From assembly GCA_032622095.1 (NCBI GenBank), contig CP136066.1, positions 130,913,917 through 130,977,916 of the forward strand: DNA of 64,000 nt, read 5' to 3'. This DNA is from Siphonodentalium dalli (taxonomy: Eukaryota > Mollusca > Scaphopoda > Gadilida > Siphonodentaliidae). How positions within the stretch are numbered: position 1 is the stretch's first letter; each line of letters starts with the position of its first letter. Positions 2,686 through 54,489 of the stretch are shown here, piece after piece. The position numbers were made by a program, and so were the translations under genes. The notes beneath the pieces are model-generated. The model was not told the DNA's origin. It saw only the letters and a program-made list of their open reading frames with translations, and did no database searches.

Positions 2686-3190
2686 ATGGACACGAGACGC
2701 TGCAGCATACCCTCATTGCACACAAGGACCTCGAGGTCGTCTTGTTGTGCGGCGTATCGAGTGATGATATTCTCAACACACAGTACATGGAGAAGCATTT
2801 CGGGATTATTCAAAAAACACTATCCTGTGATCTGGCATCCACCCGCTTAAACGAGGATGATTGCGTTTTGACGTTTCCGGAAGAAACAGAAACCGACATA
2901 TCTGAAAGTCCTCTGAAAAAGGTGATGCGATGTAAGTTCACACAAAGAGCTGTTTCAAAGAGAATCGGACATTAACTTAATCTAACTCTACTCGTGCTAT
3001 AGACGAATTGTCACAGTTGTTGCCAGACATAGTAAATTTTCTCACTGAGCATGACCGACAGGAGGAGTGGCAATGTTTCATGCGAGAGCTAACAACCAGA
3101 TGTTATTTCTCGATGTCCGTAAAATATAGACATTCGGTTCTATGTAGCGATGACATAAAGATGTGGTCATTAATATTAGGACCATCGTAG
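2664..3190 (+). CDS. Unidentified ORF, possibly two spliced exons
   Basis: A plus-strand frame open from about 2664 encodes a protein-like sequence including EVVLLCGVSSDDILNTQ, then EDDCVLTFPEETETDI. At 2933 there is a strong GTAAGT donor, and at 2977-3002 a pyrimidine-rich acceptor ending TATAG. Removing this 70 bp candidate intron keeps the frame and joins to ELSQLLPDIVNFLTEHDRQ, which runs to a TAG at 3188-3190. The 5' end abuts a LINE fragment and no start codon is visible. I do not recognise the family. It could be a host-gene fragment or a transposon-coded protein. No transcription evidence is available. Confidence 0.35.
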
Positions 3191-4023
3191 GACGCTATAC
3201 AAAGGTAGACACTTGGTGTAAATTTTGTAATTGCAATTATGTGTTCTTTGAACCAGCTTAATCGGACGTGCCAATGGATCTGAATACCCATGTCAATGCA
3301 TATAGCCGCCGCTCATCATGTGTCATGTTTATGACTAATTATGTAGTCATATTGTTAGAAATAAAGCTGACGGCATGTACTAATTTATTTAAGGCAGAGA
3401 ATCGAGCTAATCGAGCTATTCGCAGAGAACCGAGCACTCGGTAGAGAATAGGAATTCTCAGCAGAGAATCGGAATCGGAAAATAGAAAGTAAATTTCTGT
3501 GCATTTCGGGATTAGTTATTAATTTTTTTTACACACAACTGATGGCCAGTGACTATAATTTCACGATAGCGCTTTGAAACCCATGACACACTGTTCTAAT
3601 GTTGATGTTATTTACGTTTTATGCCGCGATTGCGCTGGAGTATTCTGATAATTTTCTGATACGATGCTAGTAAAATAATGAGGTGATATTCGTTCCCCAA
3701 AACAAGTTTAAGAGAAATTGGTGAGTGCACGTCAGAAAAAAAAGAATTAAATTTATGTACCTCAAATCCTCCAATAAATTTGGCTGAAGAGTTCGAGCTT
3801 AATCCACAACGAGATATATATACAATCAAACATCACAAGTGCCCGAAAGGCGCGCGTGGGTGCTCTTAACATTTTTGTTTTTACAAAATATATGTTTTTG
3901 TTATGTATTTTACCTTTTACCAACATGTCCAGCCGTATTGACCATTAGTGAGCAACATACATGAGCCCTAACATTTCAGTTATATGGGACTGGATCAACA
4001 CATTGTAATGTGTGAAAAGTGAC
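3191..4023. other. No gene seen; short GAGAATCG-type repeats
   Basis: Between about 3390 and 3480 the words GAGAATCG, CGAGCTA and GAGAACCGAG recur a few times. Nothing else is recognisable. Confidence 0.5.
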
Positions 4024-4354
4024 TACCTTACTCGTCTTTAAATTCGCACAGTACTATATTTTTATTAGTTTTGAATTCGCGCACCGTGCTTCGCGAGTTA
4101 ATAGCTGATAAAACTATTTTCGTAAAAGACTTTTTATCTGAAGGTGCATATGTATATTTAAAAAACTAACATCGAGTACATTGTAACTGCATCAACATTC
4201 TCTTGAGAAGATGCGTGGTTATATGCTCAAAACAATCATTCTGATAGTCAAATAGTTATGGACATCATTGAAATGAACCCTAAAGAAGTAAAACAACAAG
4301 GCGGCTGACTTTGGATAAAATAATAATTTAACTCAGACTGCATGACCACGTTGT

Positions 4355-4650
4355 TATCCGAAATAGATGAAGCGAACTCCTTTTTTTTCTTTGACGTGTT
4401 TAACAATGATATCTCCGACAGCCCTGCGTGCTGCGGCGCAAATCCATCCGAAGAATCCTTTCATTTTTTCTTTAGCTGCCCCTTGTATCAGACTGAGTCT
4501 TCGCTGATAAGTTGACTCACGAAAGCCTATCAATTCTCAACACAAATGAAATTGTTTTCGGAATACCATATATCTCGTCCGAAAGTAATAAGTTACTGTT
4601 CGATATAATACAGCAATATATTGTAGAGCAACTTAGTGAATCGTTAACTG
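4355..4650 (-). pseudogene. Unidentified coding remnant inside the 3 kb element
   Basis: On the minus strand two open segments joined by a shift near 4520 read as protein-like sequence: LLLSDEIYGIPKTISFVLR, then RRLSLIQGAAKEKMKGFF and ARRAVGDIIVKHVK. The second is rich in Lys, Arg and Ala and could form an amphipathic helix. I cannot assign it to a transposase family. Its position close to one inverted end suggests it may be the tail of the element's own protein. The frame is short and could be chance. Confidence 0.25.
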
Positions 4651-5195
4651 ATTAAAAAAAATAATGTATTCACAACGAAGGAATGCAAACTGCTTTAGTA
4701 TATATATGAACTACACAGTTTAGTAATCTACTGACTCCCCATGTATGGACCTACTCCCCCACTCAACCACATTCTCTATTATTGATCTACCGTATATACT
4801 GCCTTCCAGAGTAGCTGGCAAACACTTGAAGGCACTACACCAAGCACCATAAAACCACAAAATCATGCATGTAAATTATTATGTCCAGCTATCATCTTGT
4901 AAACAGTTTGTCTGCTTAATTGTTTGTATTTGGAGAGGGGCTTCATTAGTTGATAAAAACTTGTGCCCGATCGATTTTGTATTATTATTTGCAAATAATT
5001 TAAGTTTCAAATTAAAAAAATGGATCACTTTATCACTCCACGATTGTGAATATGGAGATATGCTTTCGTGACATTTGCACGGGAATATTTGTATTTCTTA
5101 CGACCATTACAACATCGAAGATTTTCCGATGATTTACACATGGCCAATGGTGTTGAGAATGCATGCCCGCATCTAAATACAAAAAAATTATAGTT

Positions 5196-6850
5196 AGAAA
5201 TGGTAACGCCCTCAATATCATATTATTAGCCATATATACAATATAACAACTTTAATGTTGTGATTGTGAAAAATCTGTATATAGGTAACGCCTATCTAGT
5301 TGATTATATGTGATATTTTTTTCTAATTTCATTTGAAATAGTGGTCTAATAGCGCATGAAATAACATGCAGAATAATAATCGGGTAAAAGTTTGTGATCT
5401 TCGTAACATGGTTCAAGTACAATCACATTTAGTATCCAATTACGCAAATACCGAGTATGTTTTAATCACATTTAGTCCACCACCTCCTGCGACAGGGTCA
5501 GATATACTTGCCAATATACACCCTAGGAGGGGCGTAATGCTGATCTAGGAATGGCCTCAGGTAATGCATTCCTGATATGACCTCTATCAAGTATGAATTA
5601 AAATACATGTATGGTTCCATGAGGGTAATTTAAAATATGGTCACACTCACAGAGGGTTAATTGAAATATGGTCCGACGAGGGTAAATTAAAATATGGTCA
5701 CATCACGGTTAAATAAAATATGGTCTCATGAGGGTTACTTAATATATCGTCCAATAAGGGTTAAAAAAAAAAAAAACTATGGTCCATTAAAATTGTAACT
5801 TGTAAAATATCGTCCCATAAGGGTTAATACAAATATGGACCCTTGGGGTTAATTGAAATATGGTCCCATTAATGTCAATTAAAATATGGTAACGCGACTT
5901 AATTAAAGAATAAATACATGGTGCCATTATGAGGTGTTAAAAAAAATTAAAATATGGTGTCATCAGTGTTTATTAAACTACGGTCCCTCTGGGGTGAAAT
6001 ACAATATAGTCCCATGATGGTCAATTAAAATAAATAAAAATAAAATAAATTAAAACATAATCACAGGGAGGGGGGTAATTTTTTAACATTCTTCAATTCA
6101 TATAGCATTCTGATATATCATCGGTACACATAAATAAAAATGATATTTAGAATTAGGTCACATTGTATGTTAAACAACAAATATGAAGGGTTAGTGTTTA
6201 GAACTTTTCTTAATAACATCTCTATTCATAGCTCCGATATATTCGCATACAAAGAAATGAAAAAATTAATATTTACAAACAGAACGAAGGAATAGCGTGT
6301 GAATTGGTTAATAATTACCATCCCAATTCATTTAGAATATAAAATGCCGATATTTGTCGCGTATAACTAAATGAAAAACAAAACAAACACCTAGTACGAT
6401 TCATGTTCGAAGTAAATTTCTTATACAATCGTCAAATCCCCGTGCAGTATAAGAGTAGATAGCATTCCGATTTATGTCACGTGAAAATAAACGAAAGATG
6501 TTCAAATAACAATGCAACAAAGCAGGTTAAAGAACAATAGAAACACATAGCGCGCAGCGTGCTAATGGTTAACGCGCGAACTCCCGTTAATTAATCGCCT
6601 CGTACTTCTTTGCATGCAAATAACAAGCATGGGTCAATCAAGTATTTCTCGAGAGACACCCGCTGCATGAATTATAAAGAAAACGACAATAAACGAAATT
6701 GAAATTCCCAACTACACCTTTTACCGGACTCGGCCTCGGGATCGCACTACAACTATCGGACTCGGCCTCGGGGTAGCACTACCACTTTTAATGCGTCCAA
6801 ACAAACTATTTTTATAAATAAAACCCCCAGCGCCATAGGATACCAAGAAA
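5196..6850. repeat. Segment whose two edges recur at 22306-23045
   Basis: The left edge TTAGAAATGGTAACGCC...ATCATATTATTAGCCATA matches 22316-22352. The right edge, TTTTACCGGACTCGG followed by TTTATAAATAAAACC, matches 22988-23032. The interiors differ in length and content, which suggests two members of one element family with different internal sequence. Confidence 0.5.
5610..6075. repeat. Degenerate minisatellite, unit about 25-35 bp
   Basis: At least a dozen diverged copies of AATTAAAATATGGTCCCAT followed by GAGGGTT. Copies differ by many substitutions and small indels, and an A-run interrupts the array near 5764. Confidence 0.85.
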
Positions 6851-7038
6851 CTCTACATTATTATACACCCGGAGTGCGAAATAATTGTCTATATTCAGTC
6901 CAACCTCCCGTAATGTATGTAACTCAATAACAATTATAGCCCTCTGATTTTCCATGTGGTTTTTCTCTCAGTTTTAAATTCGCGACCCATTGGTGCGCGA
7001 AAAAAATAGTACTACCGAATTTAAATAAGAGTAAGGTA

Positions 7039-13060: not shown

Positions 13061-14530
13061 ACAAAATATGGAAAATGGTAAATATTGCCCTAGGGTGTCC
13101 TGCAATCGCTTACAAGTTGTGGTTGATGTACACAATTGGCTATTATGCCTTCTATATATTGAATACTAACATGTCTGCTGCATCATGGTTAATTGTTACT
13201 GTTGTCATCACTGACATCACCAAAAATATTGGACTTTTCTCACAAAAACTTGACATAAATATCGGCAAAAATTAACTTTTCGGGTTTGGACAATTTTTTC
13301 TAGTAATATTGTAACTATCTTTGAATTGAAAGGTGTGTATTGTATTGGTCTATCTTAAATGTGTCACACTACGGTGTTTATAGACCAAATTGCTCAAGAT
13401 GGCTTCCAAAATGGCAACCAAATTTGTAATAAGTAATTTTTTTACATATATCATTATAACATTATATATATATAATTATTCTCTGCGTTATCCGAAATTG
13501 TAGCAAATTGTGACCCATTTGGTTATTATATGTGTTAGTTAATTAACTGACAATTAAATGTTCTATTATGGCTGTACCAGTTCCGTATAGGGCGTGACAA
13601 ATTCATTTTAAATTATGGAATTTTGCGGAGAACTTCTTTTGTGATTCTGACCATATTATTGGACGGAAATGGATAGAACTTTGAGACGGAACTGAGATGA
13701 ACCATAATATGTGACTCTTCTGGTCCATTATGGTAAACAAATATCAACTGGATACAGGATGAATGCCAAGATGGTAGCCAGGGAGTTACTCTATGATCAT
13801 AGGTGGGGTGAATAGGTATACATGGAGTTAGTGTATGTCATGAATGATGTGAATATGTATACAATGAGTGACTATATGGCTATGAGTGTGTTGTCCATAG
13901 TGAGATGTATAGGTATACAGTGAGAGGTCATGGTCAGGTGAATCGGTATGAATGGTGTTGACTGTATGGTGTACCCCGCTCGACAAAACAAGTGTCCATT
14001 GGCACCGCGGTGTATTTGCCGTTCGGCCGCGGTGTCAGCGTTTGTAACTGCGGTTGAGCACTGCGGCCGAAAGCAAGTACACTGAAGCCGAACGGCAAGT
14101 ACACCATGGCCGAAAGGCAACTACAACGCGGCCGAATGGCATGTACACCGTGGTTAGATTTCTGGTTTGTATCATCTTTTTTTCAGTTTAATGAACGTAC
14201 ACCGCAGCAACTACACCATGGCCGAATGGCAAGTACACTGCGGCCCAACAGTAGTTAGCCGGTGGAGCCGCAGTGTTGTTGCATTTCGGCCGCGGTGGCA
14301 ACGCTAACCGCACCGTGGTTAAGTGGACACTTGTTTTGTCCAGCAGGGTATGGTTGTGTGTATACTGTACGGGTGCACCCGGTGTGCCATTATGAACATT
14401 GATGTGGTGTATGGATATAGCTACATGGTCATGGGTGGAATGTACACGTGTTTCTGTATGATCACGGATGGGGTGTGTGGATAAATAGTGAGTGATTTTA
14501 TGGCTACGGGTAATGTGTATGGTATATATA
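13061..14530 (+). repeat. Left arm of large inverted duplication
   Basis: From ACAAAATATGGAAAATGG onward this arm is the reverse complement of 16115-17632, apart from one MITE in each arm. I counted about ten substitutions in the outermost 220 bp, so the duplication is not brand new. The inner part enters a roughly 42 bp satellite. Both arms contain the same short open frame; the differences between the copies mostly change amino acids, so it is not a conserved gene. Confidence 0.93.
13974..14348 (-). mobile_element. 375 bp TA-flanked MITE, copy 1
   Basis: Inverted ends CCCTGCTGGACAAAACAAGT (right end, read in reverse) and CCCCGCTCGACAAAACAAGT (left), bordered by TA at 13972-13973 and 14349-14350. 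The interior consists of short inverted and direct repeats of GCCGAATGGCAAGTACAC with CCGCGG words. It has no coding capacity. The matching place in the other duplication arm (about 16332-16336) is uninterrupted, which shows that this is an insertion. Confidence 0.92.
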
Positions 14531-16114
14531 TTCACCTCACCATTGGCCATGTCACTCACTGTATCCCTATTTGTCACACCATAGCCGAATAGCCACTCAA
14601 TATATACTAATACACCCCAGCCATGCAGTATAGTCACTCCATGTGTACATATGCACATCATCCATGGCCATATAGCCACTCGCTATATACACATACACCT
14701 CGCACATGACCACATAGCAACATCATTGTATACCCGCATAACCTACACATGACCATACCGCCACGAGTCGCCAAGTAGGAACACCAGGTATACTCACACA
14801 CCTGACACATGACCATTTAGTCACCCCCGGCATAGATATTCATTACATTGATGTCACTCCTTGTATACCTACATGTACTCATTTCACCATTGGCCATACA
14901 GTCACTACCTCTATACATATTCCACACACAGTCATAGATAGATAGTTTATTGGATAAAGCATGTACATATACAATAGGATTTATAAAAATTAAAGAAAAT
15001 TAACGACATGTTTTATCTCTGTTCAACAGTTCTCATCGACACACACATATTAGCATCTACTTGTATACTTGTATTGAATACTAAATACTTCATTTCTCGA
15101 CAATACATTAAAATAATGTAGTACTTTGTAGTAGTATAATGGTAATGTATATCAAATATACATAGAATGTGAATGTGACAAATCGATATGCATGTAAGAA
15201 GGGTTTATACCGTAGGTAATACCTTGTTACTTATTGGTTCGTACAGTCAGGGCAATATCGATTTTCGCAAATAACTTTACTTTTATAGTTTTCAATATAA
15301 CTATCTACTATAAGTCGTTTAAATGTAAATCTTGGGATGGAGGTTTTCATTGTGAGAGGTAATGAGTTCCAGGCATTTGGGATTTGGTGAAGTGGCAATC
15401 GCTCAGTATATTTTATCCTGGGTGTCTTATGTGCAAGGTTGTTTATTTGGCGGGAAGCCCTACCAGTCTGCGGTGTATTTTCCAAAAGATTATTCAATGA
15501 ATGTGGTAAGAGTCCGTTTTTCCAATCATATGCAGTAAGGGATGATTTCAATGAATGGAGATTACTAATTTTCAATATTTTACTTTGTTTAAATAAGGGT
15601 TCTGTATGAGAATTATATTTTGCATTATTTATCAGTCTAATGGCTCTTTTTTGTAGTTTAAAAAGTTTCTCAATACCTGTTGAAACACCCCATATTTCAA
15701 TGCCATATGATAGTTTACTATGTAACATGTAACCACTCGATATATACATATGAAGCCCACCCTAGACTATAGAGTCACTCCAGGTATACATATGCACCTC
15801 ACCACTGGCCATTCAGTCCTTCCAGATATACAAAAAACCCGCACTGTCGCACACACGACCACTCATACCATCCATACTTGCATATATACATCACACATGA
15901 CAGTTCAGCAACGTACTGTATAATCATACACGCCATCCATGATCATACAGCTAATCCCTACACACATACCAATGATAATACATCCACGAGATATAAACAT
16001 ATACATCCCATCCGTTACCACAAGGACACTCCCTATATACCCACACGATAATGTCCACCAGCTTACTCCACTTATGCATATACACTTCAATCATGACAGT
16101 ACAGTCATTCCACG
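14531..16114. repeat. Diverged satellite, unit about 42 bp, in the loop of the inverted duplication
   Basis: Repeats of the type ATAGTCACTCCATGTATACA then CATATNCACCTC and CATGACCAT, spaced about 42 bp where measured (14620-14760). The satellite extends into both arms (13800-14530 inverted, 16115-16510 direct), so its orientation flips near 14530. A LINE insertion interrupts it at 14934-15745. Confidence 0.8.
14934..15745 (-). pseudogene. 5'-truncated LINE, C-terminal part and 3' UTR
   Basis: The minus-strand frame 15231-15749 encodes the region after the reverse transcriptase: SKLSYGIEIWG, KLFKLQKRAIRLINNAKYN and HTEPLFKQSKILKI, features of CR1/L2/RTE-like LINEs. It ends in NRYCPDC. The 3' UTR closes with AATAAACTATCTATCTAT, a polyadenylation signal plus a CTAT simple-repeat tail (plus-strand 14934-14951). 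The 5' truncation joins satellite sequence at about 15745. The frame is open but lacks all catalytic parts. Confidence 0.9.
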
Positions 16115-17632
16115 TATACCACACGCATTGCCCGTAACCATAAACTCACTCACGATTTATCCACACACCCCATCCATGATCATACAGAAAACACATGTAC
16201 ATCCCACCCATGACCTTACAGTCACTCCATATATACATAATCAATACATAGATGGCCATGTAGCTATAACCATACACCACATCAATGTCCATACAGGCAC
16301 ACCAGGTGCACCAGTACAAGATACACACAGCCATACACAATACAGTCACTCCATTCATACCGATTCACCCCACACCTGACCATGACCTCTCCCTGTAAAC
16401 CTATACACCTCACTATGGACAACACACTCATAACCATATAGTCACCCATTGTATACATATTCACATCATCCGAGACATACACTGACTCCATGCATACCTA
16501 TTCACCTCAAATACCCATAGAGTAACTCCTTGGCTACCATCTTGGCATCCATCCTGTATTCAGTTGATATTGGTTTATCATAATGGAACAGAAGAGCCAC
16601 ATACCTGCTGGACAAAACAAGTGTCCACTTAACCGAGGTGTTGTTAGCGTTGCCACCGCGGCCGAAATGCTACTACACCGCAGCTCCACCGGCTAACTAC
16701 AGTTGGGCCGCGGTGTACCTTCCATTCAGCCATGGTGTAGTTGCCACGGTGTACGTTCATTAAACTGAAAAAAGACGATACAAACCAGAAATATAACCAC
16801 GGTGTGCATGCCATTCGGCCGCGTTGTAGTTGCCTTTCGGCCAAGGTGTACGTGCCGTTTGGCCGCAGTGTACATGCCATTCGGCCGTGGTGCTCAACTG
16901 CAGTTACAAACTCTGACACCGCGGCTGAACGGCAAATACACCACGGTGCCACTGGACACTTGTTTTGTCCAGAAGGGTATTATGGTTCATCTCAGTTCCG
17001 TCTCAAAGTTCTGCCCATTTCCTTTCAATAATATGGTCAGAATCACAAAAGAGGTTCTCCGTAAAATTCCATACTTTAAAATAAATTTGTCCTTGCCCAT
17101 ACGGAACTGGGACAACCATAATAGAACATTTAGTTGTCAGTTAATTAACTAACACGTATAATAACCAAGTGAGTCACAATTTGCTACATTTTCGGATAAC
17201 GCAGAGAATAATGTTATATATATAATGTAATAATGATATATGTAAAAAAAATAACTTATTACCAATTTGGTTGCCATATTGGAAGCCATCTTGAGCAATT
17301 TGTTCTATAAACACCGTAGTGTGACACATTTAAGATAGACCAATACAATAAACACCATTAAATCCAAAGATAATTACATATTACTGACTAGAAAAATGGT
17401 CCAAACCTGAAAAGTACATTTTTGCCGATATTTATGTCAAGTTTTTGAGAGAAACGTCCAATAGTTTTGGTGATGTCAGTGGTGGCAACAGTAACAATTA
17501 ACCATGGTGCAGCAGACATGTTAGTATTCAATGCATAGAAGGCATAATAGCCAATTTTGTACATCAACCACAACTTGTAAGCGATTGCAGGACACCCTAG
17601 GGCGATATTTACCATTTTCCCATATTTTGGCG
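16115..17632 (-). repeat. Right arm of large inverted duplication
   Basis: Reverse complement of 13061-14530. The outer edge is at TTTTCCCATATTTTGG near 17620. It carries its own MITE (16604-16977) at a site that is empty in the left arm. Confidence 0.93.
16604..16977 (+). mobile_element. 374 bp TA-flanked MITE, copy 2
   Basis: Ends CCTGCTGGACAAAACAAGTG and, in reverse, CCCTTCTGGACAAAACAAGT, bordered by TA at 16602-16603 and 16978-16979. Same family as 13974-14348. The left arm reads CCATAATATGTGACTC without interruption (about 13707-13722), the empty version of this site with a single TA. Confidence 0.93.
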
Positions 17633-18544
17633 GCCATTTTGAGCCAAAGTAAGAATTTTGGTTCCAGTGAGTTGGAATATTCATAGGTAATGGTATGCCT
17701 CACTTAATTGCAACCTTCTGTTCATTTCTTGTTGAAATATGACTAGAATCCCAGTTGTGATTTTTTTGTGAAATTTTATAACGCGTTCTGTAAAATCGAA
17801 TTTTTGAGGGATCACAAGTGGATAGGACCCCAATAATTGCACATTTAATTGCTCCAATGATCAGTTAATATATAAAATACAAAATAAAGTCATTTTACTG
17901 AACCAGTTCCAAACAGCATGAACTGATCTAGAAGATATTTGTGAAAAAATGTCATATTTTCAACTTCCGGCGGCCATTTTGGTGGCCATCTTGGATGGTG
18001 AGTTTCAATTTTGGCCCAAACTAGTGTCATTATGACTTAGCTTCATGAAAATATATACATTTTACAAGATTAGTCATGTGAATTTGCAACAAATTCCAAG
18101 TTACTGGGTTTTACGTCTGGGAAAAAATTGGGGGGGGGGGGGGTGGTATACTTTTTAGGGCGCTATAAAAAAAATTGCTCAAGGCTGACAGATGGCCAGC
18201 CGATAAAATCTTGATGTCGGATACCTGAATTTAAAAAATCCGCAGAGAAAAAAACGTTATACGCCAAAACACGCATCCGTGACCTGGCGGCCGGACTTCA
18301 TGCATTAGTGTCTGTGTACATATATATTATAGAGTTATTTAATATTCAAAGTTACTTGTGATTATTTTTTCTTCGATATCAACGGTTGTCGTATGTGGAG
18401 TGAATTGGATTATTCAGTATAGTGTATACTAATTTCATCATAACATTTATGACAAAGGATGCAGGTTTTAGAAGTTGTATCAACGTCATCGGTCATCTTT
18501 CACACATTGGCTGCAAAAATAAGTGAGTAGCAGAGTAGCATCAT
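17633..18544. other. No gene; ATGGCCGCC-like words and a poly-G run
   Basis: Contains CGGCGGCCATTTTGG and GCCATCTTGGATGG words and a 14 bp G run at 18130-18143. Similar CCAAGATGGCCGCC words occur at 55270-55290. No coding evidence. Confidence 0.5.
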
Positions 18545-20062: not shown

Positions 20063-22305
20063 ATGACATATTCAAATCAATCCAATGATGTGACGCTATG
20101 TTACACAACATGGAATGCCCAAGGGTTTGCAAACAAAATCGAGTACCCCGATTTCCGTAGACTAATAGAACGTTACGATTTCATAACTATATCTGAGACC
20201 TGGCACAATGTTCCGACACAAATTAATTTACCTGGCTATAGAGGTGGAATCGCAGTCTACTATATTGGACAAAATACGGAAGATCGGTTAAAAATGTAAC
20301 TCATATTGAAGATGTTGCACTGTCTGTCGAATTTGAAGGCGAAATCTTCAACCAAAATTGCAGCGTTGTCTTTGTTTCAATTTATATTCCGCCCCAATCA
20401 TCGACTTACTGGAATAAGCGAAAAAGTTATGACTTGATTTTTCGAGATGTCGAAATAGAACTTCGAAAATATGGCGATAGATCAGTAATAATCATGGGCG
20501 GAGATTTTAACTCTCGAACAGGTAGGAGGGCGGATTATGTCGAGCAAGATGGTGATAAATATATTTATCTCCGGATAGTTATGTTTTGGATTGTGTTAAA
20601 GACAGAAACAGTTTAGACTTCTCAAGTTATGTAAATCCACTTCAATTAGAATACTTAATGGTCGTAAATCTGGTGATTCTTTGGGAAACTACACCTCTTA
20701 CCATTATAACGGGGCAAGTATAGTAGACTTATATTCTCGTGTCTGAAAGATATCTGTCCGATGTAAGTTACTTTTGCGTGAAGCAACTTAATTAAATGGA
20801 CATCAGACAGCAATTCAAAAGCGTCAGAAGCGATTAATGATCGCGATATTAAAAAGCGACTCTTACAATTCAGATTATGAACTAATTATGAACATAATCG
20901 CAACTGAACAGAATGTGCAATTCGGGATTATGAAAATATTTTAACATCTATCAACACTAAATCTGCCCAAATTAAAAGTAATAAGTTTAAACGACAGCAA
21001 AAGAAAAGGAAATGGTTTGATGAGCGATGCAAGCAATTAAAACATGAAAAGACAAACGCGTGTCATGAAATGAAGCAAAACCCAACTGATGCAACAGTTG
21101 TGGAGTATTTTTTTCTCATAAAAAAAGCATATAAGAAAGACACAAAGAACAAATCAAAAATGTACTTCCAGGGGTAAGCAGAATCACTAGACAAAATGGA
21201 GGGTACAGACCCTTCCGAGCATTGGCGATTGATAAAATAAACGTGATGAAACAAATCACTTGCATCCAGACGAAAGTGTGGACTTTTTCAAAAAGATACT
21301 CTGCCCAGATAATGTTTCTGCAAATAAGAAAATATATTCGAATTCCACAACAACAAAAATTGATGAAAGTGATATCGAAGCCAGTGAAATAATTAATTGC
21401 GTTAAACTACTTAAAATCAATCAAATAATACAGTCCATGTATTAATCCAGTTATATTCAAGTAAAGACGGGTACAGGAATTGGACAGCCGCATCTGCATG
21501 TCCACGATTGGAGTTAAACAAGGATGCTCATCGTCGACTACGTTGTTCAAAATATTCATTGATGACATCAAATGTTCACTTGGTGTATCCGGCTGCGATC
21601 CAATATTCCTTAATAATCGTCCGCTCAGTCATCTTTTATTTGCCGACGATTTAGTGTTGTTGTCAGAAACTGAACAAGGTCTACAGAATTGTCTTGAAAA
21701 GTTAAAGAAATATACCCAATACAATGGTCTCGTTGTTAATGCAAGTAAATCAAAATGTGTGGTTTTTAGGTCAAAGAGAACTAAACGTGAACCAAGTTTC
21801 AATATAAATGCGAAATCGCTTGAATTAGTTTCAGAGTATCCATATCTCGGGATAAAATTAACATCGACTGGTAGAATGGCAAAATCACAAGAACATACAA
21901 GCGGGAAAGCCACGAAAGCAATGTTCTTTTTAAACCAGTCTGTTCCTTCAAAGATTAAGCTTCCTATTCCAACTAAATGCAAATTGTTCGACAAATTAAT
22001 AAAACCGATAATGTTATACGGATGTGAGATATGGGCAGGAGAAACACATATGCTTCACTCAGATACAATACCAAGCGAACAAGTCCATTTGAGGTTTTGG
22101 AAAATAACATTAGGTGTTGACCGAAATGCTACTAATCATGCCGTCCGCGCAGAATTGGGCAGATTCCCAGTTATACATGATGCGATTACTCAACAATTTA
22201 GATATATGAAACAAATTCGAACCTTTCAAGTGGGTGATTGGTACATGATGCATACATCGAATCACTTAGAGACCCTTCTATTTCATTATGCAACAAGAAA
22301 ACCAT

Positions 22306-31099: not shown

Positions 31100-32300
31100 T
31101 AAAATTGGGTATCGCCAGGTGCTTGCTTCACTCATAATTGATGTACCAGTACTTATTTACTTGAAATTGGCCCAAAACACCTATGTTCATGTCATCAGCA
31201 TCCATGTCCCATGAATGTCTGTCTCCATCCCGGATCTCTAGTATATTTTATTAACGGGACATCGCCTGCACAGATATATATATATATATATATCCACGGT
31301 CATAAAAGGGAATTAGGGGGTCCCTGGAGGGTTGCTTCCCTCATACGGTTTACTTATTGACTTAAAATTTGGTAAAACAAAACTAACTATTTTCATGTTA
31401 TCAGCATCTCTGCCCCAAGAATGTGTGACTCCACCCCGGAGATCTAGTAAATTTTAGTATAAGGGGACATCTCCTGCACAGATATATAGCATTCCCATGG
31501 TCATAAAAAGGGAATTATGAGTTATTGGTGGACTGCTTCCCGCATATTGTGGGCCTATATATATAGACTCGAAATTTGAATACAAAACATATTTCCAAAT
31601 GCATATCAGCATCCGTGCCCCATGAATGTGTCTCCACCCGGAGTTCTAGTAAATTCCAGTAAAGGGACTTTTCTCCTGCACAGATATGTACAATTTCGAT
31701 GGTCATAGAAAGGGAATTAGGGGTCCAGGTGGGCTTGCTTCCCTCATATGGTGTACTTATTGAATTAAAATTTTCATATCATCAGCATCCTAGCACCATG
31801 AATGTCTCTCCACCCTGGGGCTCTAGTGTGTTTGATTAAAGGGGCATCTCCTGCACAGATACATACAATATCAATGGTCATAAAAATGGAATTATGGGTC
31901 CCTGGGGGCTTGCTTCCCTCATATGGTGTACTAATTGACTTAACATTGGGTAAACCCCCCCCCCATATTTTCATATAATCAGCATCCTTGCCCCGCGAAT
32001 GAGTGTCTCCACCCCGGAGCTCTAGTATATTTAAGTAAAGGGACATCTCCTGTGCAGATTTGTACCATAAAATGGTATCTAGGGGTTACTGGGGGCTTGC
32101 TTCCCTCATATGGTTGGCCTATATCGACTCGAAAATTGAAGAAAAACCCTCTTTCCATATATATGCATATTATCAACATCCCGGTCCCAAGAATTGATGT
32201 CTCAATCCCGGAGCGCTACTATTTTTGTTATTAAAGTGACATAAAGTTGACATACCTATACCATTCTAATGTCATAAAAGGGAATTCGCTGTCGCTAGGT
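31100..32300. repeat. Tandem array, unit about 175-210 bp, six copies
   Basis: The landmark GGGACATCTCCTGCACAGAT recurs at about 31255, 31465, 31665, 31840 and 32040, with a decayed copy near 32230. Each unit also has GCTTCCCTCATATGG, ATCAGCATCC and CTCCACCCCGGAGCTCTAG. Copies differ considerably. Part of the array recurs inverted at 50640-51038. Confidence 0.9.
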
Positions 32301-33275
32301 GCTTTCTTCCCTCTTGAGATGTATGCACATATATAAATAGATAAATATTAGGCCGTCAGTTGGTTTATTCGTGTTTATTTTCCAGTCTGTTCTTGTGAAA
32401 AGAAGTACATTACGTGATTATTTTGAATGTTGCGTTTTAGGCCCATATATAGAGTATTTGAGAAAAAGACGCTGATATGTGTACAAGCGATTTAGCAACA
32501 AAACAATTAATTATTATTCAGCCATACATGATCTTTGAACATGCAGCTGCATGGGTGTACATGACCTTCTTTGTGGTGTTTAGAGGGACTATAATTGCAG
32601 GCATAATAATAATCGACAGGGATAGCACCGTGGTTCTATTGGGTATGCATACAGAGGCGATTTAGTAACGAACAATTATGTACGCCCAATTTTTGAACAG
32701 ATGAAAGGGCGTAAATAACCAGCTTGTAGATGGAACAATGGCATAAGAAGAATTCACAAGGACAACCCCGTTGTTGCTGTGGTTATTCAGCCTGTTCTCC
32801 CAAAAACCGCACTATCAGCTTAGAATAGAACATGTTTTAGGCAGATAATCCGCTTATAGTTGCCTCATTTTGAGTCGAAAATGTGCTGAAACTGGGAGCG
32901 TTTTAGTAACATTACCGACTTACAATGAGGCACTTCTAGGCATATAATGTGCGGACAATGCCAAAGTAAGCCAACTCACGACTTTTCATGTGTCTGCTCT
33001 TTAACATGTGTTTTCACTATGGCCCGCACCATAAAATGAAATAACGGGTATGAGTTCATTACCTGCTTATTTTAGAATCAAATAATCACATTATGTATCC
33101 ATTTCACATTATATTTATATTTGCGCGAGGATATGTTGCAGCCGGTTATTTGTCTACATAGGCGATTTAGCAACTGACTTATGATAATTGTTTGAACAGC
33201 TCTATAGGCTTATGACCTAGTTTGGGATTTTTCGATGAACTATAGTGGCGGCACAAGGACAATCCACAAGGAGAG
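32300..33275 (+). repeat. Segment repeated in inverted orientation at 49306-50640
   Basis: Together with 31915-32300 this is nearly the reverse complement of 49306-51038. Anchors include GGTGTTTAGAGGGACTATAA (32577), CATTTTGAGTCGAAAATGTG (32867) and ACCTAGTTTGGGATTTTTCG (33217). Internal words such as GCGATTTAGTAAC recur several times. No coding frame. Confidence 0.9.
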
Positions 33276-33906
33276 CTTCGTGGCTGCTATGGTTCCGCGT
33301 AAAAGTGCGCTTATGCAACGAAAAATTGCATTAGCCCGATTCCAGGAATTTGCGTCATCCAGATTACGTTTCTGGGAACAGCTTTGTCACCGCCCAATTC
33401 CGAGAAGGATTTAAGTTTGAGGTGGTAAAATACATTGTAATTTTTCACAAACACAGCCCATAAACGACGTGGGATTTCCGAAGTGAATCGCCAGTTTAGT
33501 TCGAAATACGCGACGCTATTCGATGCATAGCATGGCCGACTGTGGGTTGGCTTTATATTTATATCTATAATACAATATATCTAGAACGTGCGATCGTATA
33601 CGCTCATCCATGCGTCAGTTGATGCATGTGGTGGTTGTAAAAAAATATCAGACAATTTTACAAATAAACTTTAAAGGTATACTGACATAGTGCTTCAATA
33701 AACTATAATATATTGGACTTGTTATTAAACTTAAAACTTAATAATGTCACCTCGCAACTAACTTGATTGAAGTTGAGTCCTGCACACATGCAAACACGTT
33801 GACCAGTTATCACTCAGATCAATTCCGTCACGCCGAAATAGACACGATTGCGATAGGCGCTGATTCTTTGAAGTTGATTATCAAAGCTGGCCGTCTCAAC
33901 TTCAAA
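33276..33906. other. No gene or repeat recognised
   Basis: Nothing supportable seen. Confidence 0.5.
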
Positions 33907-36066: not shown

Positions 36067-36068
36067 TA

Positions 36069-36285
36069 CAGTAATTCTAGAGCTAATTAATCGACTCCTT
36101 AACTACAGCAGAATTATGGGTAACTTTTCAGGATGTAGTCCGAAATATGGCTTGTTGCCATTCATCTGAAAGCTCTCACCGAGAGCTTTCCGATGAATGG
36201 CATCAACCCATATTTCTGACTAAATCCTGAAAAGTTACCCATAATTCTGCTTTAGTTAAGGAGTCGATTAATTAGAGCATTACTG
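36069..36285. mobile_element. 217 bp palindromic MITE, TA-flanked
   Basis: Ends CAGTAATTCTAGAGCTAATT and, in reverse, CAGTAATGCTCTAATTAATC, bordered by TA (36067-36068, 36286-36287). The arms fold nearly completely (CGACTCCTTAACTACAGCAG; AATTATGGGTAACTTTTCAG; centre near GAGCTTTC). The TA site suits a Tc1/mariner-type source. Confidence 0.92.
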
Positions 36286-36724
36286 TATATCCTCTATAAC
36301 TGTTTATTCAACATCACGTGCTGCAATCCATAAATGCGGTTCAGATTTCGATGTCCGGTTCAACATTATTATCATATGGTTCGATAGCAGAAATACGCAG
36401 TTTGGAATGTTATACCGTACAAGTTTTACGAGTTGCTCTTGCTCAAGAATGGATAAATTTATAAACCTGATTTTTGGCGCATTAGTTAGAATTATATTTT
36501 TGCACAAGAACACACCACAAATATCGAACTGGACATCAAAAGCAGAACAGGATTGTATCGATTGCATAAACATAAGTTGGTCACTGACCGACATTTGCTA
36601 TTGCAGAAGAAAATAAAAAAATTCTCTGGTGTGGTTTATAGGACTATGCAATGCCGACTTAAAAATAAAAATTCACATAAACATCGCATGAAGCGGTCTA
36701 ACCACAAACTCGGGTATTCGGTAA

Positions 36725-42165: not shown

Positions 42166-43477
42166 ATTTCATGGGACACTGGTTGGATTGTTCTGAAATG
42201 TAGTATCGGATTTAGGGGTCCTTAATATATTTTTCAGATAAGCTGATGCCCCAATGAAGCCACATTTGCTGAAATAGTATCCAAAACATCAACATATCAA
42301 GAGCCATTAGACTGAATTAGATAAAAATATATCACTTGGGTCTGTTTAAGCTGGAAAAAACTCAAAATTTGTATAATTTTCTGCTATTATATCTGCATAC
42401 TAGCCTTTTTTCTGAATCGTGAATGCCGGTTATATTGCCGTGTGAAATCCTAGTACCAGATAACATTGGGTATGTATATAGCATACCACCTGAAAATGGC
42501 TTGAATATCACATACCAAAGCGGGGTGGGGGTGTGTGTGACACCCTCCTTGATCATAGTCTATATTCTACAGGGTATGTTAACTGTTTCGAGTTGGTGCA
42601 ATTAATGTGATTGTTTAATCGCTACCATCTGAAATCTATTTTTAGCATATTTCGCTATCTGATCAATTGCTACTGATATAAAAAAGGATAAAGATGGTGT
42701 GTCTCTTTCCCAAATGTTCTGTTTACATGTACATTTGGGGGTTTATGAGTCAAATAATAACAGGCAACATGTCCTTCTAACACTAAGAAATAATGTGTTC
42801 TTATGAACCAGGACAAAATATGACTATTTCTGGAGCATTACAGCACATTATTACAAATCTATATTTGTAAGCAGTAAGATAATGACAGGAAACATGTCCT
42901 CAGACTAAGAAATAATTTTTTGGTGTGTATTTCACATCACAGCTCATGTGTATACTCAAATTAGTTTATGTCATTCAAAGGGAGAAACCCATTTAGAAAG
43001 TTTAAATGAGACAATACTACCTCACTGTAGATGTAGTTGCAAGGTACAACATGTACATGTACATGTATTCTGGTAAATGACATTGGAACTAAAATAACGA
43101 TTTTTGTGTCCACCGGTATGTCATGTACCGGTATACATTGCAACTACATGTACATGTAACTTGCCTAACATACCATATACATGTATGCAGAGGGAATTTG
43201 CAAGTGTTTTTTAATCAAAATTTTAACCCAACTCTTGTTGTCAGTAAGTTTTAACCCATCCAGTTTAATGAGTTTATATATGTATATATTACATGTGTTT
43301 CTATACATGTATTTTATCTATAGTTAGTTTGTTGTCCTTGAATAAACATGTATTGCTGCACAATCAGTTTCCTTAATGTTCTATTATACTAAAACAACTC
43401 CATTGATAACAATACCCCTGAATCCCATCAAAATCTACTTCATTGCCATCCTCATCATTTCACTTTGGTATCCCCAC
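42166..43477. other. No gene; ACATGTACATGTA words
   Basis: About 1.3 kb with ACATGTACATGTA runs at 43050-43066 and 43146-43158. Short frames lack support. Confidence 0.5.
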
Positions 43478-44110
43478 CCAGGTGTACCTTGGTGTTATTC
43501 ACCCAGGTGTTCCTTGGTGTTTCCTACCCATGTGTACCTTGGTGTTTCCCACCCAGTTGTACCTTGGTTTTTTTCTTACCCAGGTGTACCTTGGTGTTTT
43601 CTTACCCAGGTGTACCTTGGTGTTTCCTTACCTGGGTGTACCTTTGGGTTTTCTAACCCAGGTGCATCTCAATGGGAAATCCACCTGGGTAAGAAAACAC
43701 CAAGGTACACCGGCGTAAGAAAACACCAAGGTACACCTGGGTTGGAAACATCAAGGTACACCTGGTGGGGAACACCCAGATAGGAAACACCAGGGTACAC
43801 CTGGGTGAATAACACTAAGGTACACCTGGGTGGGAATCACCCAGGTAGGAAACACCAGGGTACACCTGGGTGAATAACACCTAGGTAACCTGGGTGGGAA
43901 ACACCCAGGTAGGAAACATCAGGGTACACCTGGGTGAATAACACCATGGTACACCTGGGTGGGGAAACACCCAGGTAGGAAACACCAGGGTACACCTGGG
44001 TGGGAAACACCCATGTAGGGTACACCTGGTGTGGTCACCTGGGTAATTACACCCAGGTTTATCCATACCAGGGTTTTTATCCAGTTTCAGGTGGGTAAAT
44101 CATGGTAAAA
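43478..44110. repeat. Head-to-head minisatellite, unit about 28-32 bp
   Basis: The first part repeats ACCCAGGTGTACCTTGGTGT and the second part its reverse complement, ACACCAAGGTACACCTGGGT; the switch lies at about 43660-43680. This gives a palindromic array of roughly 20 copies. Open frames through it (for example 43376-43783) merely translate the repeat. Confidence 0.95.
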
Positions 44111-44989: not shown

Positions 44990-47900
44990 TGGGGAAAAAT
45001 GCATTTTTTTACGCTGAAAAATAGCAGCTACGAAGATTGTTTCCGGTCACGTGACTGATAGGTTGCGCACATTTTCTCTCCGGTTATTTTCCAAATTATC
45101 AACGTTTACGCCAAGAAAATCATCTTAATTCCGAGAAGATATAGCAACAGCGCCTGTAGAAAAGGGGACGAAGAAAACGACGTAGCTCTAGTGGCTGTTA
45201 CTTTGGCGAATTTTGATTGTTATGTTTCAAGAAGAAGTCCTTGAGCAAATTACGAGACTTTCCGAGATTCGGCGAGATGCCTAGGAATGCGGAAGTATTC
45301 TCAAATTCAGCTTTGGACAATTTGATATTTTGATTTCTGACTTATAACGTCGCTGTGTATATTTATAATATACATCCACCTCGCCCAAGGGAATGTGTTA
45401 AATTGACTGCATAAATGATTTGGTGAGGACATCTGTCACAACTGTGTACGTGCCGTTATTAATATTACGTTATTTCATACAAACTTCCTGTTTGGCTATA
45501 GTGGCAGAATTTAATAACAATAACAATGTTTTGGACAGAATTTATGCTATTCCAGCTTCTAGCTGTGTTTCCGGGTCAGGGACCAAGATACCCACGCCAA
45601 CGCTGTTCAAAAGCAGTCAAAAACAAGGACTTATCAATATCATGTGACAGCTGCAGTGGATGGACTCATCTGAAATGCTCAGAGATGACTCGATTGGAGT
45701 ACGACCGTCATGCAGAGGATGGAACCGACTTTTCCTTCTGTTGCCATCGATGTACCATCATGAATCTACCTGGAAGTTCGTGGAAAATCTCAGACTTTGA
45801 AGAGGAATGTCATGACATTAAAACTTCTTCTGACTGTTTCTCAAATAATGATGAAAAGGACTCAAATCATCCAAATATCAATGATTCTTCCCTTTCAGCT
45901 CCGCCTAACAGTGAATCAATTTTTCAAATTCCATATGCCCTGAAAAGAAATGGGCTAAAACTCCTGCATCTAAATTGTTGGAGTCTTTTGAACAAGATTG
46001 ATCAAATTAGGATTTTGGCTCGAAATTCAAAGCCTTCGGTTTTTGCTATTTCTGAAACATGGCTAGATAGTTCTGTCGACAGTTCTGAAATTTCTAATGA
46101 TGACCACTTAGTGATGATAAATGATTGAAATAGAAATGGCGGTGGTGTCTGTCTTTATATTCACCAGTCCCTCTCATTTAATCCTCGGCAGGATATTTTG
46201 AATCCCGAACTTGAATTTTGCTGGGTAGACATTCTACTGCCTAAATGTAAAGCTATTTTGGTTGGAGTGGGCTATCGCCCTCCTGATTTTCATAAATTCT
46301 TCCCTAAATTTTAAGAATATATTAATGAAAAGAAATTTCTCAGAGATGAAACAATAATTCTTGGTGATTTTAATGTTGATGTATCAGCCAAGAGATTGAA
46401 CACACTTAAGCGGGGTCTTAATTCATTCAAATTAATTTCGGGTTTGACTCAGCTCATCAAATGCCATACGAGAGTAACAAGTAATTCTTCTACTATAATT
46501 GACCTTATTCTAACCACTGATCAAGGTAAATATGCTCATTCAGGAGTTCTTGACATAGGAATTAGCGACCATAAAGTAACATATGATGTTCGTAAAAAGT
46601 TAAAACAGCAAGTTGGCAAACATAATGAAATGAGATTAAGATCGATGAAGAATTATTCCTTCGAAAATTTTCATGAAACTTTAAATAACTTGGACTGGAC
46701 TAATGTAATTTGCTGTGACGATGTGGAGAAGGCATGGATGTTGTTCAGCTGTTTGTTTATTTCTGCTATTGATATTGTAGCTCCCTATGCTGAGGTAAGA
46801 GCTAAGGCCCGAACTGAGCCATGGATGGATAGAGATATTTTGCAGAATATCCGAGATAGTGATAAATTAAAGATGAATAAAAATAATTATAAAGCTCTAT
46901 GGAAGTCTCTGAAAGATCTTGGTGCCCCATCAAAGAAGGGCCGTGGTAGTTCAGGGAACGTATCACTTAAAATTGGGGGTGATATTATTTCAGATAAGAA
47001 ATTGGTCGGTAATGAATTTATTAATTTTTTTAGTAATGTGGCTGCCGACCTTGTTGACAAATTACCTGCAGCTAAAGAGAAATATGGTAGTGCGTTTATT
47101 CATAAATATTATTCTGACAAAGGTGTAAAGCCTAATTCATTTAAGCTTAGAGTAGTAGAGGAACAAGAAATTCTTGATATTCTGCTAGATATGGATCCAT
47201 CTAAGGCTACTGGTTTGGATCTGATACCAGCAAGGTTTCTTCGAGATGGCGCTTCGGTGATTTCTTCCCCCTTGACACATATTATAAATCTGACAATACA
47301 CCACGGGATCATTCCAAATGATTTGAAAGTTGCAAGAGTGGTTCCCATTTATAAGAAAAATGAAAAAACCTCACCTGGTAATTATAGACCGGTTTCCATT
47401 CTAAATCTGGCTTCCAAAATTCTAGAGAAAATTGTTTATAAACAAATGGAAGAATACCTAACACAGAATAATTTATTATATGAGCATCAATCGGGGTTTA
47501 GAGCTGGCTTATCAACCGAATCTACCGTTATCTCTCTCACCGACTCTATTAGAAGGAACATGGATAAAGGATCGCTTACTGGAATGGTCTTTATTGACCT
47601 CCAGAAAGCATTTGACACTGTGAACCATACTATCCTATTGGATAAATTAAGTGCTCTAGGCAGCGATAATAACACCCTAACATGGTTCTCATCATATCTG
47701 TCAGACCGGACCCAAATTACTGACATAAGTGGAACGCATTCACATGCTATTAATATCACGTGCGGTGTGCCTCAAGGGTAAATATTGGGACCTATTCTGT
47801 TTGTATTATACGTGAATGATGCAGTTGCAGCCGTAAATTCCAAGTTACTACTGTACGCAGATGACTCAGCTTTGATAGTTTCGGGAAATGATACAAAAGT

Positions 47901-49305
47901 GATAGCAGATCAGCTGAGTACCGAATTAACATCACTAAGCCACTGGTTAGTTGACAACAAATTGTCACTTCATTTAGGCAAAAACAGAATCCATCTTATT
48001 TGGCTCCTTTCGCAAAATTAATAAATGTCCCGAACTTGCAATCTGCTGCAACGGTATCAATATTCAGTCCGCTAAGGAGGTGAAATATCTGGGCGCCTGT
48101 CTCGATGAAAGTCTCACTGGGGAACAAATGGCCAAACAGGTGCTAAATAAAGTAACTGCTCGTCTTAAATTTTTATATAGAGAGGCTGACTTTCTAACTC
48201 CTTTCACAAAGAAACTACTTGCAAACTCATTAATTCAATGCCACCTTGATTATGCATCCTCTATTTGGTATAGCTCTTTGAGTAAAACTACCAAAAATAA
48301 ACTACAAATTTTTCAAAACAAATTAATCCGGTTTGTTCTGAGCTTGGATAGATATTCACATATAGGTTATGAAGAGTTTAAATCCATTAAATGGCTTCCA
48401 GTTGAATCCAGAGTTTCCCAAAGAAAACTGACTATCATGAAAAATATCACAGATGGGAAAGCTCCTAACTACCTAAGAGATGGATTCCAATTTTCGAACA
48501 CTCATTGTAAATATAATCTCCGGTCTGGAATTTTTAGATTATCTGTGCCTCATGTTAGAGTATTTGGATACAATAGCTTCTTCTACACAGGGATCACTTT
48601 GTGGAATAATTATGTAAAATATATTGAACCTAACTGCAATTTAGCTACATGGAATCACCTAATAAAACAGGAGTTATTTGATAAAATTTTAGGTGCTGAG
48701 GAATCTGACTTTGTATATTATTAATGGTATGAATCATACTATTAATAATACTGTATGACCTTATGAGAACTTGTGTTGTGGCCTGGTCAGTCATGTGGTC
48801 GGTTAACATTAAGGACCACAGTGGAAATAAGCAAGCTTTGGCTTGCTTTCCTGTGCGCTCCTTGATGGCAATCGATGGCATGACTTGTCAGACCGAGCTT
48901 ATTCATGTGTATATTTCTCTTCTACTTCTCTATCTTTCTACCTCCATCTCTATCTCTTAATGTCTTACTTATCTACAGTTCTCTTACTAATATTTCTTAA
49001 GCAACATGACAGTCATGTTGAGGGAGGAGGGTGGGATAGCACGGGTTGATTATTCATGTTTGTATATATATAAAGGTACGAGTATCTATTTAGTAGTTAT
49101 TACTAAGCTAGGTTTATTCACTATCTTGTCCCTCTGCAGAACTGTCAAGCTGCATTCTTGTTATATTTATATATCTATACTTTTTATATTTATACTATAT
49201 GAATATCACACTCTGTGTTACTCTTTTGTATATATGCTTATGCTCAATTGTCTGCAAGTTTTGCATCTGTTAGCCATTAAAAAAATATCTATCTATCTAT
49301 CTAAG
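44990..49305 (+). mobile_element. Nearly full-length L2/CR1-type LINE (whole element)
   Basis: Follows the palindrome directly. A 5' UTR of about 0.5 kb precedes one long broken frame (45526-48724). A 3' UTR of about 0.55 kb ends in an ATCT repeat (TATCTATCTATCTATC, about 49287-49303), beyond which the inverted repeat segment begins. The target duplication could not be resolved. It is the best preserved retroelement in the window. Confidence 0.85.
45526..48724 (+). pseudogene. L2/CR1-type LINE polyprotein: PHD finger, endonuclease, reverse transcriptase
   Basis: Domains in order: a PHD-type zinc finger (CDSCSGWTHLKC, FCCHRC; about residues 24-75), an APE endonuclease (LHLNCWSLLNK, ISETWLDSSV, GVGYRPP, ILGDFNV), then the RT (RVVPIYKK, SPGNYRPVSIL, HQSGFRAGLST, FIDLQKAFDTV, YADD at 47854-47865) and a C-terminal connection (VKYLGACLDESLTGEQMA, CHLDYASSIWY). 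Defects: TGA at 46126-46128, TAA at 46312-46314, TAA at 47779-47781 just after CGVPQG (replacing the usual Ser of PQGSILGP), and a +1 shift in the A5 run at 47980-47984. The zinc finger has Arg (45595-45597) where the first Cys is expected. Some 5' sequence may be missing. In L2/CR1 elements this protein nicks target DNA and copies the RNA in place. This copy cannot do so. Confidence 0.95.
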
Positions 49306-51038
49306 CTCTCCTTGTAGATTTTTCTTGCGCCGCCACAAATTCATCGACAAATCCCAAACTAGGTTATATGCCTATAGAGCTGTTCAAACATTTATCATAA
49401 GTCAGTTGCTAAATCGCCTATTTAGACAAATAACCGACTGCAACATATCCTCGCGCAAATACGCACATAATCAACCTATAATGTGAAATGGATACATAAT
49501 GTGATTATTTGATTCTAAAATAAGCAGGTGATGAACTCATATCCGTTATTTCATTTTATGGTGCGGGCCATAGTGAAAACACATATTAAAGAGCAGACAC
49601 ATGAAAAGTCGTGAGTTGGATTACTTTTGTCATTGTCCGCACATAATCTGCCGAAAAGTGCCTAATTGTGAGTCGATAATGTTACTAAAATGCTCCCAGT
49701 TTCAGCACATTTTCGACTCAAAATGAGGCAACTCTAAGCAGATAATCTGCCTAAAACATGTTCTATTCTAAGCTGGTAATCTGCTGTTTTTTGGGAGAAC
49801 AGGCTGAATAACCACAGCAACAACGGGGTTATCCTTGTGGATTCTTGTCATACCACTGTTCCATCTACAAACTGGTCATTTATGCCCTTTCAGCTGTTCA
49901 AAAATTGGGCGTAAATAAATTTTCGTTACTAAATCGCCCTCTGTATGCATACCCAATACAACCACGGTGCTATCATTGTCGACTATTATTGTGCCTGCAA
50001 TTATAGTACCTCTAAACACCACTAAATCGCCTCTGTGGACATATATAACCACAACAGGCACGGGTCTACATTATGATTGTGGATTCTTATTGTGCCACCA
50101 GTCCATCTAAAAGTCCTAACATATCATGCCAATAGGTTCAAATTAGACCTATACATTCACAGAGGTTCTCGTATTGATGAAAAAGTAAAATAAATAGTGC
50201 CAACATGGGCTTATTTCGTATTGAAATAGGCCCATATCGTGCTTATATTGAACGCTGCCTTTTACACCCATATGAACGTCTTTTTCTCAAATACTCTCTA
50301 TATGGGCCTAAAACGCAACATTCAAAATAATCACGTAATGTACTTCTTTTCACAAGAACAGGCTGTAAAGTCTAAGCCTGTTCTCGAGAAAATAACCACA
50401 TTTCGTTTTTTTTTTATTTGCGCGAGATCAATTAATATTGGCATTATTTGAAAACTCAAATACGCTCTATATATGGACCTAAACTCTGGTTATTATAAAA
50501 CAGCCCCATTTGGAAATATTTAAATATGAAATAAGCACGTATTGTGCTTATTTTAAGAAAACAGACTGGAAAATAACACGAATAAACCAACTCACGGCCT
50601 AATATTTATCTATTTATATATGTGCATATATCTCAAAAGAGAAGAAAGCCCCTAGCGACAACTAATTCCCTTTTATGACATTAGAAATGGTATAGGTATG
50701 TGAACTTTATGTCACTTTAATAACAAAAATAGTAGCGCTCCGGGATCGAGACATCAATTCTTGGGACCGGGATGTTGATAATATGCATATATATGGAAAG
50801 TTTTTTTTCTTCAATTTTCGAGTAGATATAGGCCAACCATATGAGGGAAGCAAGCCCCCAGTAACCCCTAAATACCATTTTATGGTACAAATCTGCGTAG
50901 GAGATGTCCCTTTACTTAAATATACTAGAGCTCTGGGGTGGAGACACGCATTCGCGGGACAAGGATGCTGATTATATGAAAATATGGGGGTGTTGTTTAC
51001 CAAATGTTAAGTCAATTAGTACACCATATGAGGGAAGG
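49306..51038 (-). repeat. Inverted copy of 31915-33275
   Basis: Near reverse complement of the 32-33 kb segment, including part of the 175-210 bp array (50640-51038, two units). Its left edge (AAGCTCTCCTTG) abuts the LINE tail, so the LINE probably jumped into this segment. There is extra sequence at 50060-50600 relative to the partner, related to the 44.2-45 kb palindrome. Confidence 0.9.
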
Positions 51039-51606: not shown

Positions 51607-51608
51607 TA

Positions 51609-52870: not shown

Positions 52871-52877
52871 CGTGCGA

Positions 52878-54395: not shown

Positions 54396-54489
54396 TATAA
54401 TAACGTGTTTACGTCCACTGAGGGCTTAGTTCAAAATCAAATAAGTCCAATAATAACATATTTGAATATTTATCTATTTATATATGCGC

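Follow-up and report, generated by a model that had tools for sequence, protein, structure and literature searches.

In a window of 64,000 nucleotides from the scaphopod Siphonodentalium dalli (contig CP136066.1 of assembly GCA_032622095.1; coordinates count from the start of the window), a palindrome carries one copy of the same short element in each of its arms, at different sites. The arrangement raises the question of whether the two elements jumped into an inverted duplication formed at this locus or arrived together with it. Comparison with other parts of the genome makes it very likely that the palindrome is a member of a high-copy family of foldback-like transposons, that two miniature inverted-repeat transposable elements (MITEs), called A and B here, inserted into its progenitor, and that the composite was then amplified and A was later excised repeatedly.

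The window copy of the transposon occupies positions 13062–18297, as delimited by its collinear relatives L031–L034 (L numbers denote individual copies and loci), its ends, and a mapped truncation. The left inverted arm (13062–14530, forward strand) has the order outer–mid–A–inner, with the outer segment aligned at 13062–13708, the mid at 13710–13971, and the inner from 14351. The right inverted arm (16115–18297, reverse strand), defined by alignment and by relatives, has the order outer–B–mid–inner, with the outer segment at 16980–18297 and the mid at 16336–16601. The MITE-like element A (13974–14348, forward strand) is 375 bp long and has 25-bp terminal inverted repeats (TIRs) with two mismatches and internal repeats of about 22 bp. 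Element B (16604–16977, reverse strand) is 374 bp long, belongs to the same family, is 90.6% identical to A, and has the same orientation relative to its own arm. Element A lies between TA target duplications at 13972–13973 and 14349–14350, and B between those at 16602–16603 and 16978–16979. The unfilled mirror of B's site is a single TA in the left arm (13708–13709), and that of A's site a single TA in the right arm (16334–16335). The filled and unfilled forms of site A, with the context GTG-TA-TGG, differ by the element and two base pairs, TA. Without A and B, the arms are 92.3% identical across 1080 aligned columns; left and right are 93.6% identical in the outer segments, 91.0% in the mid, 89.8% in the inner, and 90.6% in the elements. 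A 21-bp TIR pattern, with up to three mismatches allowed, has exactly four occurrences in the window and none in 100 shuffles, and a single strand of element A folds strongly (z -8.4). The first-pass annotation had described one element per arm, each facing a single TA, and its coordinates are correct to the base; its claims of a MITE-like element with a TA duplication and exact ends at 13974–14348 and 16604–16977 are supported.

The same annotation had proposed to verify this layout by aligning the arms, where two gaps at the elements were expected and a stacking of the elements at one site was to count as refutation. A naive alignment, by MAFFT or by a global aligner, gives the latter result: it stacks A on B and gaps the mid of about 265 bp, with a raw score of 1783 vs 1609 for mid on mid. 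This check can therefore mislead, and the two-gap arrangement is supported by other evidence. The higher-scoring alignment corresponds to an alternative in which one ancestral element was common to both arms and the mid switched sides, and the divergence of the elements does equal that of the arms (odds ratio 0.79, 95% confidence interval 0.50–1.27). However, TIRs are present in the element and none is seen by eye in the mid, both elements are bounded exactly by TA at each end, and other genomic copies have lost A alone, with the mid still joined to the inner segment. Element A is also found at unrelated TA sites, and A and B form separate groups across copies. A switch of the mid is thus scarcely credible, and the reciprocal insertion of two elements is favored.

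The host assembly of 2.23 Gb in nine contigs contains many collinear copies of the palindrome. In each genome search the best 40 of 3044–6900 first-look candidates were scored (for A, the best 40 of 3728), and copies fetched twice, such as L003/L031/L076, were counted once. Of 29 other loci with element A that were fetched, 21 run on collinearly into the palindrome (L018 and L022 in part) and eight do not (L002, L007, L008, L010, L012, L013, L017, and L023). Four copies read over 9 kb share the layout left arm, A, center, B, right arm, except that in L033 element B is cut short and the right arm is absent. The start of B is present in all 18 copies ascertained through A whose flank reaches the site, the flanks of the remaining three of the 21 being too short. 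All 30 B loci fetched, including the window's own, have B at the same palindrome site, and B is found in 15 of 15 stretches ascertained through the outer arm, which were chosen from the 45 matches listed.

A local inverted duplication on this chromosome and two later, independent MITE jumps into it would produce the arms, elements, and empty sites described above. However, many contigs carry this palindrome with A and B at identical positions, and the outer arms of the same side are closer between copies than are the two arms of one copy. This alternative is extremely improbable: as regards where and when the elements jumped it is refuted, and it survives only as a description of a distant progenitor. 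Neither jump happened in this molecule, because the arms belong to a dispersed transposon whose collinear copies hold both elements. Of the earlier claim that the jumps followed the inverted duplication, the insertion into arms that already existed stands, whereas the local duplication and the jumps within this molecule do not. Presence or absence of small elements is typical of differences between haplotypes, so the structure might be suspected to be an assembly artefact in which two haplotypes were joined in inverted orientation; since the same inverted structure is found on many contigs, where its termini are shared and its flanks differ, that suspicion has a negligible probability.

The order of events is indicated by the divergence of the arms. 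The left and right outer arms within a copy differ by 6.2–8.5% (four copies), whereas outer arms of the same side differ between copies by 0.6–2.9%, with a mean of 1.8% (16 comparisons). Both insertions therefore predate the amplification of the sampled copies. The corresponding values for the mid are 5.3–9.3% within copies (five copies) and 0.4–6.1%, with a mean of 2.8%, between copies (20 comparisons). In a tree, a branch with support of 100/100 separates the B elements taken from four copies from every A element. Divergence was rejected as a clock for the jumps relative to the split of the arms, since A and B (10.1%, or 5.2% without CpG) and the two arms (8.1%, or 7.2%) are indistinguishable in this respect. 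The phase of the tandem array across the site is too irregular to serve as evidence.

The long inverted arms, internal tandem repeats, and dispersed copies are those of a foldback-type transposon, which is about 5.1 kb long between the termini AGTCCGGCCGCCAGGTCACGG (v1) or AGTCCGGTCGCCAAACCCCCGAAATTCACGG (v2). Each end abuts TA (TA-GTCC...GGAC-TA) in six of the seven distinct copies with both ends found. A search for the ends in 16 further copies located both in six, one in eight, and neither in two; L029 and L030 share flanks, as do L007, L008, and L017, and are not independent insertions. The right terminal sequence of the window copy, as read on the reverse strand, is AGTCCGGCCGCCAGGTCACGGATGCG (18272–18297). 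The window copy lacks about 669 bp of its left arm, and position 13062 corresponds to 17628. Because 13062 is a truncation, there is no target duplication there: none was found at the edges 13062/17629, the best match within 35-base ranges being 5 bp. Degenerate tandem repeats of about 42 bp fill the inner arms and the center (14575–14936 and 15725–16470, both on the forward strand) and are separated by a 788-bp insertion (14937–15724, reverse strand), which is absent from the relatives compared, as they are collinear across 14936/15725. No convincing target duplication flanks the insertion. By eye, its motifs suggest a putative 5'-truncated long interspersed nuclear element (LINE) fragment with the end of a reverse transcriptase frame, although the sole Pfam match lies below the threshold and concerns another family. 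A Pfam scan for transposases in the three frames of at least 130 amino acids (aa) of the window copy gave no match above the cut-off; the window copy also has five shorter frames, of 90–127 aa. At G000:C1:92246825-92248958, the 5.1-kb element is represented by two outer arms in a head-to-head arrangement, with adjoining inner ends.

The state of site A was scored in 40 matches to B. Thirty were read from flanks (the window's A being known directly), nine from extra stretches, and L027 from its A locus; L107 was scored as filled from the end of the mid and the end of the element only. The site is filled in 25 copies, scarred in eight, and unreadable in seven (L087, L088, L094, L098, L104, L105, and L109), and it is a plain TA in none. 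The scarred share is thus 8 of the 33 readable copies ascertained through element B. Six copies (L077, L078, L091, L101, L106, and L108) have the scar TACCGGTA, with CCGG between the TAs, whereas L084 has TACCGTA (CCG) and L083 has TACGGTA (CGG). Each scar consists of two TAs and two bases from each end of the element, which begins with CCC and ends with GGG, or two bases from one end and one from the other. These remnants fall within the 2–4 bp expected between the TAs of Tc1/mariner scars, a yardstick taken from PMC7913693. In a tree of 26 copies, most branches of which are weakly supported, the six scarred copies included are scattered, require five parsimony changes, of which at least two are forced by well-supported branches, and are no more clustered than shuffled labels. 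Excision of A thus took place repeatedly.

The mirror of A is a plain TA in 31 of the 37 distinct copies scored. The other six are CA in L029 and L030, AA in L078, altered in L084, TACCGTA in L087, and filled in L071; the scar in L087 lies in a rearranged copy with left-arm-like flanks. Of 24 distinct copies scored for the mirror of B, 23 have a plain TA and one, L006, an altered site, and site scoring of the copies revealed no scar at site B. As loss of the element at site A leaves bases behind, the plain TAs at the mirror sites are most likely sites that were never filled. This is not fully certain, because a zero-base scar is reported for a Tc1/mariner element in PMC7913693. Alternatively, both sites might already have been filled when the arms were duplicated, so that each arm held two elements and then precisely lost one. 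Tc1/mariner excision can be scarless, the zebrafish element ZB leaving 0–3 bp according to PMC7913693, and A is present in both arms of L071 and a mirror-side scar in L087. However, the tract beside the extra A of L071 is left-arm-like, and precise loss from both arms is very improbable. The annotation's statement that the layout proves the TA duplication inside one molecule was too strong; what decides the matter is the wider genome, in which excision of A has left scars that most mirrors do not show.

The arms also exchange sequence, so the observation that gene conversion has not fully homogenized them is true but understated. In L071, A is present in both arms, and remains of B persist beside the extra A. 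The mid next to this A is 95.0% identical to the left arm vs 92.1% to the right, and the inner segment 94.5% vs 90.4%. The simplest reading is that left-arm sequence was copied into the right arm. The right arm of L068 has an extra left-like tract. Furthermore, the terminal variants swap sides between two subfamilies: five copies with both ends seen have v2 on the left and v1 on the right (L028, L029, L030, L031, and L032), and three have v1 on the left and v2 on the right (L005, L011, and L015). Of the copies with a single end seen, seven fit v2/v1 and four fit v1/v2, and the readable left arms agree. A crossover between the arms near their tips, inverting the interior, or an exchange between copies would explain the swap. 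In every copy painted, the inner part of the outer arm stays on its own side except at single columns; for partial sequences, the first 16 diagnostic columns of this painting are uninformative. Conversion of the outer left arm in subfamily Y was considered and is not needed, because the distant arm of L002 agrees with Y at seven of eight informative columns.

Several observations weigh against the history of insertion, amplification, and repeated excision. The mid fits the timing less cleanly, its contrast being weaker because the right mids of L033 and L034 are 4–6% from the others. Since only the best candidates of each search were scored, older copies lacking A or B may exist. The mirror of A is scarred in L087 and holds an A in L071. 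Neither end of copy L005 lies at a TA, nor does the right end of the window copy at 18297. The TA duplication of the 5.1-kb element is deduced from its flanks, as no empty site was seen. No transposase was found for either element, although no systematic search was made.

Elements A and B have the properties of a MITE, being short (374–375 bp), bounded by TIRs, and without coding capacity. The frames over A or B reach at most 164 aa from stop to stop and either overrun the element or are shorter than 130 aa, and the 164-aa frame has no Pfam match. The copies are uniform in length, all 40 scored A matches being 97–100% identical over at least 362 of 375 positions. Near-identical A elements occupy other TA sites, and TA is present on both sides in seven of the eight copies of A outside the palindrome. 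The A copy in L002, 334 kb from the window, lies at another TA and differs from the window's A by one inserted or deleted base; this is in line with recent mobility, one shared substitution being thin evidence. The left flank of L002 contains an arm-like stretch of 76% identity. In L007, L008, and L017, A has the same near flanks and appears to lie within a second dispersed repeat rather than the palindrome. In L020, L028, L029, and L030, 12 bases are missing from one end of element A. About 29 bases are missing from one end of B in 11 of the 15 outer-arm copies (L111–L116, L118, L120–L122, and L125) and likewise in L034, the copy of L020; such end-shortened elements should be immobile. The TIR pattern gives 0 matches in the sets viral_contigs and genome_contigs, element A has no match among phages, and Rfam yields 0 matches.

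The TA duplication and scars fit a MITE that works like a Tc1/mariner element; membership is not proven, because no transposase has been identified. A TA-targeting MITE from another superfamily, for instance an undescribed group, is unlikely, although the search for transposases, which was not systematic, found none and three strings from the TIR matched no transposon paper by title among the matches listed. As described in PMC4482050, ISL2EU duplicates AT in A-AT-T and PIF/Harbinger a 3-bp TWA. An AT duplication is impossible at GTG-TA-TGG, which cannot be read as the ISL2EU target, and the difference of the element and the 2-bp TA between filled and unfilled sites does not fit PIF/Harbinger. 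Duplication of TA combined with scars of 2–4 bp is the Tc1/mariner pattern in the accounts of PMC7913693 and PMC1925063.

The proposed history starts from an apparently non-autonomous DNA transposon, about 5.1 kb in length, whose long inverted arms hold tandem repeats of about 42 bp. After the arms existed, two members of one TA-targeting MITE family would have entered the progenitor at different sites, B on the right and A on the left, and amplification of the composite would have passed both to the sampled copies. A Tc1/mariner-type transposase acting in trans may have moved the MITE by recognizing CCCTGCTGGACAAAACAAGTG, making a cut that leaves two bases of each end, and inserting at TA. 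Element A later departed from several copies by cut and paste, and end joining would have retained CC and GG, or a trimmed form with one base of an end, between the two TAs. From time to time, the arms also exchange sequence. The dispersal, fixed positions, TA flanks, scars, unfilled mirror sites, and arm exchange are shown by the sequences, whereas the role of the transposase is inferred. More tentatively, the foldback element could be a carrier that multiplies A, from which A leaves for new TA sites, and recombination between the arms could flip the interior between isomers (tips v2/v1 and v1/v2) and copy A across; this is possible but doubtful. In one subfamily, A and B each lack one end and would then be locked in.

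The individual processes have known counterparts. ZB, as presented in PMC7913693, is a Tc1/mariner element with small cut-and-paste scars (0–3 bp) but is autonomous and active. Stowaway MITEs in intron 4 of the Triticeae beta-amylase gene, described in PMC1925063, are likewise TA-flanked and palindromic and leave small scars, of 2–4 bp by one TA and 1–2 bp by the other; those scars were compared across a plant tribe, whereas the comparison here is between copies of a single repeat within a genome. Submariner of Pandoravirus salinus resembles A and B in being short, with TIRs, no coding capacity, and a TA duplication, which PMC4495683 demonstrated from a paralogous empty site whose flanks are 11% diverged. 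Unlike in that account, a single palindrome here has reciprocal filled and unfilled sites, and one of the sites also occurs in scarred states. Tetris of Drosophila virilis (PMC4079207) and Galileo (PMC4168063) are reported to share with the 5.1-kb element the long inverted arms, internal tandem repeats, and many rearranged copies, and Tetris is similarly described as lacking evident coding capacity; its target duplications are given as 8–10 bp, whereas the 5.1-kb element lies mostly between TAs. Both families appear to be new, as topic and string searches of the open-access literature did not find them. Although the mechanisms are known, the within-genome record of site states is unusual: in one repeat family of one genome, a site is filled, scarred, copied to the other arm, and apparently never filled in the mirror. 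The target duplication, scar types, and excised share can thus be read without another species. The locus is also a warning that a palindrome in a single window can be a dispersed transposon.

Other repeats are present in the window. A 221-bp palindrome (89%) at 36067–36287, with ends CAGTAAT...ATTACTG and TA on both sides, resembles another TA-type MITE. A second inverted-repeat pair (31913–33278 and 49303–51037; 90–94%) has a more complex difference between its copies; it was aligned as a candidate for a further insertion, and no simple insertion emerged. Inverted arrays of repeats of about 25 bp (ACACCTGGGTG...) are located at 43473–44058, and arrays of GCGCCGAAA-type repeats at 51135–54397. 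Reverse transcriptase frames matching Pfam RVT_1 lie at 46315–47778 (E 3e-20) and 21465–22304 (E 3e-13).

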